From an uncultured Acidimicrobiia bacterium (GTDB taxonomy: Bacteria > Actinomycetota > Acidimicrobiia > Acidimicrobiales > CAIXPF01): 45,512 nt of DNA. The stretch spans positions 1 through 45,512 of the forward strand of contig CAIXPF010000012.1 of assembly GCA_903921205.1 (NCBI GenBank), written 5' to 3'. The translations under genes and the position numbers were made by a program. Positions 3,587-29,460 of this stretch are shown here, one piece after another (the stretch's first letter is position 1; each line of letters starts with the position of its first letter). The notes under the pieces are model-generated. The model made no database searches and was not told where the DNA came from. It was given only the letters and a program-made list of their open reading frames with translations.

Positions 3587-3618
3587 CGATCGCCCGGGCG
3601 TGCGCGCCCGGGCGATCG
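3587..3618 (+). terminator. Hairpin terminator of the dehydratase-dehydrogenase operon
   Basis: CGATCGCCCGGGCG, loop TGCG, then the exact complement: a perfect 14-bp stem 3 bases after the last stop codon. There is no U-tract, as is frequent for actinobacterial terminators. Confidence 0.6.
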
Positions 3619-12526: not shown

Positions 12527-12564
12527 ACAAAAAGCACGAAGCCGGATCATCAGATCCGGCTTCG
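12527..12564 (-). terminator. Intrinsic terminator of the dnaG-sigA transcript
   Basis: A perfect 12-bp stem (CGAAGCCGGATC), a 4-base loop and, on the - strand, a run of five T after the stem (12529-12533). It lies 22 bases after the sigma gene's stop. It is the clearest classical Rho-independent terminator in the window. Confidence 0.88.
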
Positions 12565-22486: not shown

Positions 22487-25400
22487 TCAGCTACGGGGGA
22501 TCTCCCGATCCTCATAGGTCTCGATGATGTCGCCCTGCTTGAGGTCCTGGAAGTCCGACAGGCCGATACCGCATTCGTAGCCGGTGTTGACCTCTCGGGC
22601 GTCGTCCTTGAAACGCCGCAGCGACGAGACAGTGCCCTTCCAGATGATCGTGCCCTCCCGAAGGAAGCGCACCTTGGAGTTTCGGGTGATCGTGCCGCTG
22701 AGCACGTAGCAACCGGCGATCGAACCGACTTTCGGCACCCGGAAGATCTCCCGGACCTCGGCCTCGCCGGTGACCACTTCCTCGAACTCCGGAGCGAGCA
22801 GGCCGAGCATGGCGTTCTCGATGTCCTCGAGAACGTTGTAGATGATCTCGTAGGTACGGATCTCCACGCCCTCTTGGTCGGCCATCTCCCGCACCTTGCG
22901 GTCCGGTCGGACGTTGAAGCCGATCAGCGTGGCATTCGAGGCCGCCGCGAGCTGGATGTCGCTCTTGGTGATGCCGCCCACACCCCGCAGCACGAAGTTC
23001 AGCTTCACGTCGTCGCGCTCGAGTTTCTTGAGCGACTCCGTCAACGCCTCGAGCGAGCCCGTCACGTCGGCCTTCAGGATGAGGTTGAGCGTTGCCGTCT
23101 CGCCGGCCTGGATCTGCCGGAACACGTCCTCGAGGCGAGCGCCGCCCGCTGCGATGTGCGGCACGCTGCCCAACGACGCCTGACGCTGCCAGTGCTCACG
23201 GGTCTGGGCGACCTCGCGGGACACCTTCTCGCTCGGCGCCACGATGAAGTCGTCGCCGGCCTCGGCAACCTCGGACAGGCCGAGGATCTGCACCGGCGTG
23301 GACGGTCCGACCGACTTGACCTGCTTGCCCTTGTCGTCGATGAGTGCCCGCACCTTGCCCCAAGCGGCACCGGCGACCACCGGGTCACCGACCTTCAGGG
23401 TTCCGCGCTGCACCAGAACCGTCGCCACCGGACCACGTCCGATGTCGAGGTTGGACTCGAGCACCACGCCCGTCGCCCGGCCCGTGGCGTTGGCCCGCAG
23501 GTCCTCGACCTCGGACACCACGAGCAGGTTCTCGAGCAGATCGTCCACGCCGAGGTTCTGCAGTGCAGAGACCTCGACCATGATCGTGTCGCCGCCCCAG
23601 GCCTCGGGGATCAACCCCCGCTCGGACAACTGCTGCATGACCCGGTTGGGGTCGGCCTCGGCGCGGTCGATCTTGTTGATCGCCACGACGATGGGAACCT
23701 CGGCCGCACGAGCGTGCTGGATTGCCTCGAGTGTCTGGGGCATGACCCCGTCGTCGGCCGCAACGACCAGCACGACGATGTCGGTGGCGTCGGCACCGCG
23801 AGCACGCATGGCCGTGAAGGCCTCGTGGCCGGGGGTGTCGATGAAGGTGATCAGCTGACCGCCCTTTTCGACCTGGTAGGCCCCGATGTGCTGGGTGATA
23901 CCGCCGGCCTCGCCCGCCACCACGTTGGTGTTGCGGATCTGGTCGAGCAGCTTCGTCTTGCCGTGGTCGACGTGACCCATCACGGTGATGACCGGGGGAC
24001 GCAGCGGCAGCGAGTCGTAATCCTCGTCGTCGTCGACGAGATCGAGGCCGAGACGCCCGCGGAGTTGAACCTCCTGCTCCTCGCCCGGGTCGACCATCTT
24101 GAGTTGCGCGCCGACCTCTGCGGCGAACAGCTCCATCATGTCGTCGGACAGCGACTGGGTCGCGGTGATCATCTCACCCTGCTGGAGCAGGAACCGCACG
24201 ACGTCGGCGGCCGTACGGTTCAGCTTCGGACCGAACTGCTGCGCAGTCGATCCTCGTTCGACGACCACCTCGCCCTCGGGCACCGGTGCATTGACCGGCG
24301 TGTACGTCGGCATGTCGAGCGGCTGCAGCTCTTCCATGCTGCGACGACGACGGCTCTTTCGACGCTGCTGCGGACCGCGACGACCGCCCGGTCCACCACC
24401 GGGACCACCACGGCCTGGGCCTCCACCACCGGGGCCACCACCGGGACGACCGGCGAAACCACCGCCGGGACCGCCACCCGGACCACCGCCGGGACCGCCG
24501 GGACCGCCACCCGGACGACCACCGAAGCCGCCACCGGGACGACCGGCGAAGCCGCCGCCACCACCGGGACCGCCACCAGGGCGCGACCCGCCCGGTCCAC
24601 CAGGACCACCCGGTCCACCAGGGCCGCCGGGACGACGCGGGCCACCGGGCGGCGGCGGGATCGGCCGACCGGTACGCGAGAGAGGGGGACCGCCTGGGGG
24701 CGGGGGAATCGGACGACCCGACACCGACGTGGGCGGGCCGCCGGGACGCGGGGGCCCGGGCGGCCGCGGGCCGCCAGGGCCAGGACGCATCCCGGGCATC
24801 GGAGGCCTGGTCCCGGGAGGCGGACCTGCCGGACGGGGGGCACCCGGCGCACCTGGTGCACCGGTCGGACCAGCACCCGGTGCCGGAGGACGAGGGGGCT
24901 GACCTGGCGCAGGCGGACGCGGACCGGCCGGCATGCCAGGGCGGGGCGCGCCCGGACCGGCACCCGGCACGGGAGGACGAGGGGGCTGACCCGGCGCAGG
25001 CGGACGCGGACCGGCCGGCGCTCCGGGCCGAGGACCAGCGGGAGCAGCAGCGTCGGGCCGACGAGGAACCTCGCGACCACCTGATGCGATCGGGGCTCGA
25101 CCGGGCGGCGGGCCCTGTGGCCGGCCCATCGGCGGCGGGCCCTGCGGTGCAGGTCGGACCCCGGGGCCAGCTCGCGGCGGCACCGGCGCGCCACCGGTGG
25201 GGGGCGCAGGAGGACGGGGAGCCTGCGGGGGCACGGCCCGGGCCACCGGGGCCGGAGCCTCCGGAGTCGGCGGGGCCGGGGACATCGACGCTGCGGACAC
25301 AGGCTGCGGCGGCTCCACAGGAGCGACCGGAGCGACCTCGGCCAACGGAACACTCGGTGCCGGGGTGGCTGGAGCGGGCACCTCAACCGGAGCAACGGAC

Positions 25401-25687
25401 GCCGGCGTCACCGAGGTAACAGCCGCTGGAGTCTCGACCACGGGCACAGGGGCCGGGGCAGCAGGCTTGGCTGTTCTCGGGGGAAGGGGCTCGTCCTCGG
25501 GCGGTTGGTGATCGCGGACCAAGCCATCGCGCTCGGCGCGGCGACGTACACGGTCTGCCTGGGCTTCCACCACACTCGACGAGTGGCTCTTCACCCCGAT
25601 CCCGAGCGCGTCACAGAGGTCGAGCGTCTCCTTGTTGGTAAGACCGAGCTCTCGTGCGAGCTCGTACAGCCGAATCTTTGCGGGCAA
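22487..25687 (-). CDS. infB: Translation initiation factor IF-2
   Basis: A 1066-residue GTPase that brings initiator tRNA to the 30S subunit. An N-terminal IF2_N domain ([20 protein letters not shown]) is followed by a very long Pro/Gly/Arg-rich linker (about residues 60-460). After that come a second IF2_N-like domain near [15 protein letters not shown], then the G domain with [16 protein letters not shown] and NKID, and domains II to IV. The start is TTG at 25687, chosen because the conserved N-terminus begins right there. No strong ribosome site is close, so initiation may be weak. It is about 180 residues longer than an E. coli-type IF-2 because of the linker. Confidence 0.95.
24885..25019 (-). 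repeat. 48-bp direct repeat inside the infB linker
   Basis: Positions 24885-24932 and 24972-25019 are identical except for one base, with an 87-bp period. They encode two copies of a 29-residue unit containing [15 protein letters not shown]. The array lies in the low-complexity linker of IF-2 and suggests recent expansion. Confidence 0.9.
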
Positions 25688-25779
25688 GTGCTGTCTCAGC
25701 CCCTCAGGTCTGTCAATTGGGCGACACGGGCCGCCAGCCCCCGGAACACTCGCGGGCAGGCCACACGCGACCGATCATG

Positions 25780-26040
25780 CTAGTCGGCACAGGCAGCGTC
25801 TCGGAAACCACTCAGATCGACGATGCCATCGGGCGACGGTGGGAGCACCGGGGTCCGGCGCAGGGCACGGGTCCAGGCACGCCGCTTCGCCGCTTGGTCC
25901 CAACAACTCTGGGCAGGGCACAGCCACGCGCCGCGACCGGGCGCGACACGACTGAGGATCAGTCCGCCACCGTCCCCGACGACGAATCGACGCAACTCCT
26001 CCTGCGGTCGGACAGCACGACAGCCGATGCAGGTACGCAT
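25780..26040 (-). CDS. ylxR: YlxR-family RNA-binding/nucleoid-associated protein (DUF448)
   Basis: An 86-residue protein beginning MRTCIGCR, with the family's [10 protein letters not shown] segment. YlxR proteins bind nucleic acid and have been implicated in RNase P function and transcriptional control in Firmicutes. The gene follows nusA after 16 bases. Its ATG at 26040 has no Shine-Dalgarno sequence and lies inside a 13-bp inverted repeat (26018-26049), so its translation probably depends on ribosomes arriving from nusA. Confidence 0.9.
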
Positions 26041-26049
26041 CGGCTGTCG
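26018..26049 (-). promoter_or_regulatory. 13-bp hairpin burying the ylxR start codon
   Basis: On the - strand CGACAGCCGATGC, a 6-base loop and its exact complement form a perfect 13-bp stem. The ATG of ylxR is in the 5' arm and codons 4-8 are in the 3' arm. The nusA stop codon lies only 8 bases outside the stem. The layout fits translational coupling or attenuation. Confidence 0.7.
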
Positions 26050-26056
26050 GGGTGCA

Positions 26057-27235
<1,179 letters not shown>

Positions 27236-27299
27236 GCCTGCACTCCATTTCGGCGCGACGGGGCGCCGTCTCCGGACCGGACGAGGGTGGATCGCACCC

Positions 27300-27866
27300 T
27301 CATGGTTGGTCTCCGGCCATGGTCATTTCGTTCTTCGACGCTGCGGATCGGGCCTTGGAAGCCTTCGCCGCACCGGGTTTGGATCCCTTTCCCGGCTTGG
27401 GACCGGGACCCCATTCGAACACGGTTCGCGCCTTGTCGATGGCCCGGTAGCCGATCTCCAGCGTCTCGGGTTCGTCGGTGGCTCTGATCGGCTCGGTACG
27501 CACCGTGATCCCGTCGTCGTCGGCCGCCAACAAGATGCCGGTCAGCCTTTCGGTCTTCGGTTCACGGGTCCAGCGGAAGGTGATCTTCTGGCCGAGCACC
27601 GCTGCGAAATGGCGAGGCGTGCGCAAGGGCCGCTCGACACCGGGGCTGGAGACCTCGAGCGTGTAGCGGGCCGAGATCGGATCCGCCTCGTCGAGCGCCC
27701 GGGAGACCTGCTGGGTCACCTCGGACAGACGATCGAGGCTGATGCCACCCGGTTCGTCCACCACCACGCGCACCACGACGCCGCGATGCTCGACGTCCAC
27801 GAGTTCGACGCCGAGCGCATCGACGACCGGCGTGACGACGTTCGACACAGCCTGGGCAATCGTCAT
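27300..27866 (-). CDS. rimP: Ribosome maturation factor RimP
   Basis: A 188-residue factor for 30S maturation, with the conserved stretch VDEPGGISLDRLSEVTQQVS and LEVSSPGVERPL. A basic, Lys/Ala/Ser-rich extension of about 30 residues follows the SH3-like domain. The ATG at 27866 has an AGGAGG site 4 bases upstream. It is the first gene of the rimP-nusA-ylxR-infB unit and has its own candidate promoter and structured leader. Confidence 0.93.
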   Translation of the reverse strand: MTIAQAVSNVVTPVVDALGVELVDVEHRGVVVRVVVDEPGGISLDRLSEVTQQVSRALDEADPISARYTLEVSSPGVERPLRTPRHFAAVLGQKITFRWTREPKTERLTGILLAADDDGITVRTEPIRATDEPETLEIGYRAIDKARTVFEWGPGPKPGKGSKPGAAKASKARSAASKNEMTMAGDQP

Positions 27867-27908
27867 CACACCTCCTGCGGGTTCGGGCGTTCTGCGGCCG
27901 GGATCAGC

Positions 27909-27935
27909 GAAGGCGTGGGCAACGCCCACGCCTTC
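27909..27935 (-). other. Stable hairpin in the rimP-nusA leader
   Basis: GAAGGCGTGGGC, a 3-base loop and its exact complement make a perfect 12-bp stem 43 bases before rimP, with no T-run on either side. It sits downstream of the candidate TATAAT box, so it would be in the 5' leader of the rimP-nusA message. It may instead mark the end of the proS transcript. Confidence 0.6.
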
Positions 27936-27963
27936 AGCGATTCGCTCGAACGTTGGTCTGCCG

Positions 27964-27969
27964 ATTATA
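27964..27969 (-). promoter_or_regulatory. Candidate -10 box (TATAAT) for rimP-nusA-infB
   Basis: A perfect TATAAT on the - strand about 95 bases before rimP, rare in such GC-rich DNA. I find no good -35 hexamer at 16-18 bases. Transcription would begin near 27957. Confidence 0.5.
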
Positions 27970-27998
27970 GCGGCCCGATCCGAATCGGCTGCCCATGC

Positions 27999-28015
27999 GG
28001 GCCGGGCGGGCCGGG
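27999..28015 (+). other. G-quadruplex motif upstream of the rimP promoter
   Basis: Four GGG runs separated by 2, 1 and 2 bases fit the canonical G-quadruplex pattern on the + strand, just upstream of the candidate rimP promoter and downstream of proS. GC-rich genomes contain such motifs by chance. Confidence 0.4.
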
Positions 28016-28050
28016 CCGCCAAGGTCGATCCGGCGTACGCCGCCGCACGG

Positions 28051-29460
28051 TCAGTAGGCCCGGGCCACCACGGCGACGACCTCGTCGCCGAGTTCGGTGG
28101 GAACCGTTCCGTCGGGGTTCTGCAGGCAGCGCACGGTGATGGCCTTCGCCGCCAACGCCTCCTCGCCCTGCTCCCCCAGAACCGACCAGCGAATTCGGGC
28201 GAAGCCGGTCTGAGCCGCCTCGGCCGCCTCCTCGATGGTGTCGACGACGACCGTACGGTTGTCTCGTCGGGCCGTGGCAGCGGCCAGCAGCCCGTCCTGG
28301 ACGCCCTGCAGCGCCGCGGCCACGGCCTCGGGCACTGCGTCGAGACCAACCGCAACCTTCGTCCCGTCGTCGCGTCGCGCCAGGGTGACCTGGCCCTCCT
28401 TGAGATCGCGGGGCCCGACCTCGATCCGAACCGGGACGCCCTTGAGCTCCCAGTCGGTCGCGCGGCGGCCGAAGCTGGCCGAGGTGTGCGCATCAAGCCT
28501 GGCCCGGACCCCGGCGGCAGCGAGGCGATCCACCAACGCCTGTGCAGCCTCTCCCGCACCGTCCTCGTCCCGTACCAGCAGCACCACCACCTGCACGTGG
28601 GCAAGACGAGGCGGCACCCGCATGCCCGCATCGTCCCCGTGACACATGATCAGCCCACCCAACATACGCGTCGAGGTTCCCCATGACGTCGTCCAGCAGA
28701 GCTGCCGTTGACCACCGGCATCGAGGAAATCGATGTCGAAGGCCTTGGCGAAGTTCTGACCCAGCTCATGGCTCGTGCCCATTTGCAAGGCCTTCCCGTC
28801 ACCCATCATCGCCTCGCAGGCCATGGTGTTGATGGCCCCGGCGAACCGCTCCCGGCGGGTCTTGACACCGACCAGGACCGGCATGGCCAACACGTTCACC
28901 ATGAAATCCCGGTAGGCCTCGAGCAGGATACGGGTGGCGTAGGCGGCACCGTCCTCGCGTGAGGCGTGGGCCGTGTGCCCTTCCTGCCACAGGAACTCGG
29001 TGGTCCGCAGGAACACCCGGGGACGAAGTTCCCAACGCACGACGTTGGCCCACTGGTTCAGCAGCAGCGGCAAGTCGCGGTAGGACTGGATCCACTTGGC
29101 CATGAACTCGCCGAACACTGTTTCCGAGGTCGGCCGAACCACCACCGGCTCCTCGAGCTCCTTGCCACCGGCGTGGGTCACCACGGCCAACTCCGGGCTG
29201 AAGCCCTCGACGTGTTCCGCCTCGCGGCGCAGATAGCTCTCGGGTATGAACAGCGGCATGTAGACGTTCTCGGCGCCGCATGCCTTGATCCGGGCGTCCA
29301 TCTCGGCCTGCATGCGTTCCCACAGGCCGTAGCCGTACGGTCGGATCACCATCGTGCCGCGCACCGGACCGTTGTCGGCGAGTTCCGCCTTGGCCAGGAC
29401 ATCCTGGTACCAACGCGGGAAGTCCTCTGCTTGGGGGGTGAGGATGGGAGCCTTGGCCAT
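28051..29460 (-). CDS. proS: Prolyl-tRNA synthetase, archaeal/eukaryote-like (ProS type 3)
   Basis: A 469-residue class II synthetase charging tRNA(Pro). Motif 2 lies in NVVRWELRPRVFLRTTEFLWQ-type sequence with RPTSETV upstream, and motif 3 in GTSTRMLGGLIMCHGDD. The anticodon-binding domain follows. There is no editing insertion between motifs 2 and 3, which with the length identifies the archaeal-type enzyme, not the longer bacterial form. I chose the ATG at 29460, giving the family N-terminus AKAPILTPQAEDFPRWY. It is the last gene of the rpsB-to-proS run, 38 bases after ispG. A YbaK-type editor is encoded at 8802-9290. Confidence 0.93.
   Translation of the reverse strand: MAKAPILTPQAEDFPRWYQDVLAKAELADNGPVRGTMVIRPYGYGLWERMQAEMDARIKACGAENVYMPLFIPESYLRREAEHVEGFSPELAVVTHAGGKELEEPVVVRPTSETVFGEFMAKWIQSYRDLPLLLNQWANVVRWELRPRVFLRTTEFLWQEGHTAHASREDGAAYATRILLEAYRDFMVNVLAMPVLVGVKTRRERFAGAINTMACEAMMGDGKALQMGTSHELGQNFAKAFDIDFLDAGGQRQLCWTTSWGTSTRMLGGLIMCHGDDAGMRVPPRLAHVQVVVLLVRDEDGAGEAAQALVDRLAAAGVRARLDAHTSASFGRRATDWELKGVPVRIEVGPRDLKEGQVTLARRDDGTKVAVGLDAVPEAVAAALQGVQDGLLAAATARRDNRTVVVDTIEEAAEAAQTGFARIRWSVLGEQGEEALAAKAITVRCLQNPDGTVPTELGDEVVAVVARAY

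Follow-up and report, generated by a model that had tools for sequence, protein, structure and literature searches.

The 45,512-nt stretch of DNA analysed here (hereafter the window) comes from an uncultured Acidimicrobiia bacterium and raises the question of how translation of ylxR begins at a junction where the candidate start codon lies within a long perfect stem. On the minus strand of the window the gene order is nusA, ylxR and infB. nusA occupies 27235-26057 (an open reading frame with Pfam matches to NusA_N and KH_5), and ylxR, if read from its ATG, occupies 25780-26040, ending with the stop at 25780 (YlxR/DUF448; Pfam PF04296, E 1.1e-17); its start is uncertain.

A stem over the candidate ylxR start codon

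The initial annotation had described a perfect 13-bp inverted repeat with a 6-base loop around the ylxR ATG, a nusA stop codon 8 bases away and the lack of a Shine-Dalgarno (SD) sequence, all of which we confirmed on the minus strand. The 5' arm (CGACAGCCGATGC on the coding strand, 26049-26037) contains the candidate ATG (26040-26038), the loop is GTACCT (26031-26036) and the 3' arm (GCATCGGCTGTCG, 26030-26018) carries the C-I-G-C-R codons of the conserved YlxR motif; all 13 of the 13 pairs in 26018-26049 are perfect. The last base of the nusA stop (TGA, 26059-26057) lies 8 nt from the stem and 16 bases separate this stop from the ATG, with which it does not overlap, and no GGAG or GAGG is found 4-10 nt 5' of ATG 26040. 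Computed over the 26 bases around this ATG, opening of the structure costs 25.5 kcal/mol, as compared to 14.2 kcal/mol (sd 3.4) for shuffled sequences and a mean of 15.8 kcal/mol for 240 starts of the same genome, 10 of which reach 25.5 kcal/mol; these 240 starts were picked mechanically by a simple rule and some of them are surely wrong. Folding of 70 nt at the junction gave an unremarkable minimum free energy, which 23% (L009) and 11% (L010) of the controls equalled. What stands out at the junction is thus the opening energy and the long perfect arms, not the 70-nt folding energy.

To judge how surprising such arms are, we considered sequence composition, coding constraint and the repeat background of the genome. 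Two sequence models of the window were sampled with 20 sequences each: the order-1 model yielded no arms of at least 12, and the order-3 model gave 0.05 arms of 13 per window. The genome itself, over 372 kb, contains 8 perfect repeats with arms of at least 13 and loops of 3-8, or roughly one per 46 kb, so that one per window is ordinary; a second repeat with arms of at least 13 is indeed present in the window at 3587-3618. Counting arms of 12-14, perfect hairpins other than the stem were seen at this position and at 12537-12564 and 27909-27935. An origin of the stem from a dispersed repeat could be ruled out, since the only exact matches of its 13-mer in the 4.36-Mb genome are its own two arms. 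Elsewhere in this genome, two long perfect hairpins (L188:19490-19533 and L192:127-162) have the arm GTTGCGGCGAATCG in common and are perhaps copies of a dispersed palindromic repeat. With respect to coding, 7 of the 13 pairs (CCGATGC/GCATCGG) are dictated by the P-M-R-T-C-I-G codons, which limits the surprise to the remaining 6 pairs. The earlier idea of a joint constraint on structure and protein is therefore better reversed, as these 7 pairs are a by-product of the protein sequence.

Within the genus we compared four genomes, namely the window's own (G000), G001, G002 and G003. The stem is intact in two of the four, G000 and G003, with identical arms. G002 keeps 11 of the 13 pairs (one of them as G-U), including the 7 dictated by coding, and G001 keeps 8 of 13, with TTG in place of ATG and another strong, imperfect fold. 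Opening of the start costs 25.5 (G000), 25.2 (G003), 17.3 (G002) and 25.6 kcal/mol (G001), the start of G002 not being unusually closed (z 0.92) and the TTG of G001 being closed by its different fold (z 2.14). An alignment of the junctions for compensatory changes, which had been suggested as a check of the stem, gave no significant base-pair covariation over the four sequences, with 241 of 500 shuffles reaching the observed score. All 26 arm bases are the same in G000 and G003, while 31% of the 4-fold sites in nusA and infB differ between these genomes (identity of 69% in nusA, n=155, and 69% in infB, n=513, with 80% in the ylxR frame, n=54). Without selection, the 9 noncoding arm bases would remain unchanged with a probability of about 0.035 (at 69% identity) to about 0.13 (at 80%), which gives weak support for selection on these bases.

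Given this background, the stem might be a functionless accident, in which 7 pairs follow from coding and the other 6 arose by chance or when the sequence was miscopied in the ancestor shared by G000 and G003. Such an origin would fit the genomic frequency of long repeats, the restriction to two species, the lack of covariation and the weak conservation test. We nevertheless consider it rather unlikely, as the stem sits exactly on the likely start, keeps 26 of its 26 arm bases despite the divergence of the flanking genes, and belongs to a kind of hairpin that recurs at this place: perfect arms of at least 12 were found at 4 of 85 nusA-ylxR junctions of the order, in three lineages (G000 with G003, G190 and G070), versus 0 of 504 displaced control windows from the same loci, which consist mostly of coding DNA. 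The hairpins of G190 (L097) and G070 (L058) are unrelated 12-bp perfect hairpins located right before the conserved R-T-C (RTC) of ylxR.

Two regulatory roles of the stem were also weighed. Its place in what looks like an operon, downstream of nusA and upstream of infB, would suit a transcription attenuator or terminator, and the initial annotation had offered attenuation of the nusA-infB message as a possibility. A scan for intrinsic terminators over 25600-27400 showed no GC stem with a T-run at the stem, Rfam gave no known RNA family in 25000-29000, and the 3' arm lies within ylxR; we therefore rejected this reading as very improbable. Alternatively, the stem could be a putative binding site through which YlxR blocks its own start. 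YlxR (RnpM) modulates RNase P and was found associated with RNase P RNA in Bacillus subtilis, as described in PMC11898665, and the stem is located on the likely ylxR start; yet it is not conserved in the order, and a self-binding site of this kind appears highly unlikely.

Probable noncanonical ylxR start triplets in the order

To see how ylxR begins in relatives of the window, we searched 397 genomes of the order, which we infer to be the Acidimicrobiales, and obtained YlxR hits in 233. We examined 130 junctions from the better-scoring part of these hits, skipping a few hits at contig ends, and used 115 of them. A first set of 90 junctions was reduced to 79 by dropping 5 that lacked the ylxR motif, 5 in which a nusA stop was missing and L078, whose stop lies beyond the RTC; a fresh set of 40, for which predictions had been made beforehand, lost 4 junctions and thus comprised 36. 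For many ylxR hits in the relatives, the contig ends about 600-900 bases away in the direction of infB, which looks as though assemblies break in the repetitive stretch that encodes the N-terminus of the infB product.

In 83 of the 115 junctions, the nusA stop overlaps a triplet in the ylxR frame by 4 nt. These triplets are ATA (50), GTA (18), CTG (14) and GTG (1), without any ATG, TTG, CTA or TTA, so that 82 of the 83 are ATA, GTA or CTG. The first set contributed 53 (38 ATA, 8 GTA and 7 CTG, none canonical) and the fresh set 30 (12 ATA, 10 GTA, 7 CTG and 1 GTG). Not all of the 83 may be starts, as some nusA stops are far from the RTC, with canonical codons in between. At the other 32 junctions, the corresponding triplet is in another frame and reads CTG (10), GTG (7), GTA (6), CTA (5), ATA (2), TTG (1) or TTA (1). 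ATA is thus clearly enriched in frame, whereas CTG is not clearly so (first set: 7 in frame, 8 in the other frames).

The ATA triplets arise where an A precedes a TAA or TAG stop of nusA, and such stops place the ATA in the ylxR frame in 38 of 39 cases in the first set and in 12 of 13 in the fresh set. In the first set, A precedes 39 of 58 TAA/TAG nusA stops, versus 9% third-base A in nusA tails (binomial p 2e-27, this and the other order-wide p-values being too small due to the relatedness of the genomes); the corresponding count in the fresh set is 13 of 25. A mere preference of the stop codon for this context could be ruled out, as the TAA/TAG stops of ylxR itself are preceded by A in only 8 of 33 cases (Fisher p 8e-5 versus the nusA stops). 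Moreover, GGAG or GAGG occurs 3-10 nt before the ATA in 31 of the 38 first-set cases, with a peak at 7-8 nt, as compared to 5-12 of 38 at four displaced positions, and in 10 of 12 fresh-set cases (41 of 50 overall). The open ylxR frame lacks any ATG, GTG or TTG in 34 of the 50 ATA cases (26 of 38 and 8 of 12 in the first and fresh set, respectively); a canonical codon within 15 codons of the RTC is present in 4 of 50 (3 and 1), which speaks against a noncanonical start in these cases. The ATA cases of the first set carry 20 family labels, and opening of 36 ATA sites costs 15.0 kcal/mol on average (range 7.7-22.8), well below the 25.5 and 25.2 kcal/mol of the ATG in G000 and G003.

The predictions made for the fresh set held for the triplets (1 of 30 canonical) and for the SD sequence (10 of 12), and barely for the A before TAA/TAG (13 of 25), while the expectation that ATA would far outnumber GTA failed (12 versus 10). 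Taken together, these patterns suggest that ylxR very probably has a noncanonical start of the ATA class in this order, and this is a stronger result than the stem in the window. Among the literature matches listed, mostly open-access papers, we recognised no earlier report of a noncanonical ylxR start.

We also considered whether a -1 frameshift could instead produce a NusA-YlxR fusion, and judged this less likely than initiation at AUA: the ATA also occurs apart from the nusA stop (L038 and the Microbacterium locus L138), the SD sequence is spaced at 7-8 nt, as in initiation, and no slippery heptamer was seen by eye at the junctions. The Microbacterium case comes from a scan of named genomes, whose pattern requires TAA or TAG and whose species overlap the order set; 80 of 85 stretches were read and 63 were confirmed to follow nusA. 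In these 63 rows the base before the stop is A in 56, G in 6 and C in 1, the ATA rows including Candidatus Microthrix and Aciditerrimonas ferrireducens. In two Microbacterium loci (L138 and L123), GAGGTG stands 4 nt upstream of an ATA in frame, and the ylxR frame lacks a canonical start; the nusA frame of L138 terminates 57 nt ahead of the RTC, so that the ATA there is independent of the nusA stop. Outside the actinobacterial cases, the scan returned ATA in two records of Eremiobacterota and CTA in one of Vulcanimicrobiota. Among loci sampled from the rest of the phylum (70 read, of which 10 lacked the ylxR motif and 60 were scored), a canonical start is present somewhere in 55 of 60 ylxR frames and absent from 5. 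The latter (L272, L273, L274, L223 and L270) lack any ATG, GTG or TTG and have GTA, ATC or CTG at likely start places.

The position of the ylxR start in the window

The 4-nt overlap triplet seen in most junctions of the order is absent in the window's genus. Each of the four genus genomes has a canonical codon just before the RTC (ATG, ATG, ATG and TTG), whereas G004, from the same family, has no candidate at this position and has its canonical candidates inside nusA. For the window itself, the principal competitor of ATG 26040 is a CTG in the ylxR frame (26068-26070), 11 nt before the nusA stop and 10 codons upstream of the ATG, which is preceded at 6 nt by a GAGG (26080-26077) in both G000 and G003. 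Further in-frame candidates are a GTG inside nusA (26128-26130) with AGGAG 7 nt upstream, which has no counterpart among the candidates of G003, and ATGs at 26094 and 26103, with GAGG at a distance of 12 or 3 nt, at whose positions G003 has no ATG.

If ylxR started at CUG 26070, it would overlap the end of nusA, the stem would begin at +22 inside the gene and outside the initiating ribosome, and the ATG would encode an internal methionine. The CTG and its GAGG are equally spaced in G000 and G003, where opening of the site costs only 12.6 and 11.4 kcal/mol, respectively, and the segment from the GAGG to the stem is nearly the same in both genomes. CTG accounts for 14 of the 83 overlap triplets of the order, and an in-frame ATA of G070 (L058) likewise has its first base 22 nt ahead of the 12-bp hairpin. 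On the other hand, both GAGG and CTG are also dictated by nusA coding (A-E-V-P-A-A-E-A), G002 has the CTG without the GAGG, the interval from CTG to ATG has two differences between G000 and G003, both of them nonsynonymous when read as ylxR, and the ATG or TTG at position -1 in all four genus members would be left unexplained. Initiation at this CUG seems rather unlikely to us. The canonical codon at -1 in the whole genus favours 26040, while the SD sequence and the open structure favour 26070; we regard 26040 as the likelier start, albeit uncertainly and not by much.

Proposed weak initiation, nusA coupling and a possible role of IF3

We tentatively propose that the junction is built for a weak ylxR start, used mainly by ribosomes arriving from nusA, through a noncanonical overlap in most junctions of the order and through a stem-buried AUG in the window. 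At most junctions, ylxR would start from AUA, or less commonly from GUA or CUG, at a 4-nt overlap with the nusA stop, and this noncanonical codon usually has an SD sequence of its own. The window and its closest relative have, as the sole canonical start just before the conserved motif, an AUG that lacks an SD sequence and lies inside the 13-bp stem; free 30S subunits would seldom open this stem, whereas a ribosome that has just terminated nusA translation would sit at its foot and could melt it. The output of YlxR would thereby be kept low, the stem substituting for the noncanonical start in this lineage.

The stem is best seen as one lineage's way to keep ylxR translation weak and tied to nusA. 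The strict form of this idea in the initial annotation, a lock by which ylxR is read only after ribosomes have finished nusA, agrees with the computed occlusion of the AUG, the lack of an SD sequence and the reach of a ribosome ending nusA; it is not borne out by covariation or by an intact stem beyond two species, and the start at 26040 is insecure. Such a lock mechanism is possible, and rests on these two species and an unproved start codon. Hairpins that occlude a start codon and are opened by a translating ribosome form a class of their own, which the window resembles in having its AUG in a stable stem just past an upstream stop, and from which it differs in that the stem is intact in two species, shows no covariation and is combined with the lack of an SD sequence. 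Termination-reinitiation at overlapping genes (ATGA or TGATG) is another known class, as described in PMC6728339. The order resembles it in the 4-nt overlap of the nusA stop and the likely ylxR start, and deviates from it in using ATA, GTA, CTG and once GTG in these 83 cases; the window differs by its 16-nt gap and its stem. Reinitiation coupling is said to need overlaps or very short distances (PMC10666635), so that an AUG 16 bases past the nusA stop counts against such coupling in the window.

Experimentally characterised noncanonical start codons are very few, and infC is the well-characterised gene in which such a start is under the control of IF3, according to PMC5472188, which also describes the repression by IF3 of Streptomyces sigR with its GTC start; this study makes no mention of ylxR. 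AUA starts were likewise described for infC, ccpN and citZ of Staphylococcus aureus (PMC13009471). In the order, all 25 infC loci that could be parsed (of 29) have ATA (18) or ATC (7) as the likely start, 9-12 codons before the N-terminal IF3 motif, and infC of the window's genome (L302, G000:C180) has ATA with AGGAG 9 nt upstream, followed five codons later by a GTG without SD sequence. The likely ylxR start of the order resembles those of infC and sigR in combining a noncanonical triplet with an SD sequence, often without a canonical alternative, whereas the ylxR of the window differs in having ATG. Besides infC, ylxR is probably a further gene whose noncanonical start is conserved. Given the IF3-controlled precedents and the ATA/ATC of infC in the order, it is reasonable, on sequence alone, that IF3 might limit ylxR. 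It is possible, if doubtful, that across the Acidimicrobiales IF3 controls infC and ylxR through the same kind of noncanonical start, and that the genus of the window swapped the weak codon for a stem over an AUG.

Conservation of AUA, GUA or CUG as the start across much of the order, in genomes with AUA or AUC in infC, would make ylxR a further candidate for IF3 control. As start prediction presumes ATG, GTG or TTG (PMC5472188), annotation of these genomes may overlook ylxR or give it a wrong start if its noncanonical start is conserved. The window offers an example of what may happen in a lineage once it has lost the noncanonical codon. If true, IF3 control of ylxR would tie the control of RNase P to the level of IF3 and to the translation of nusA.
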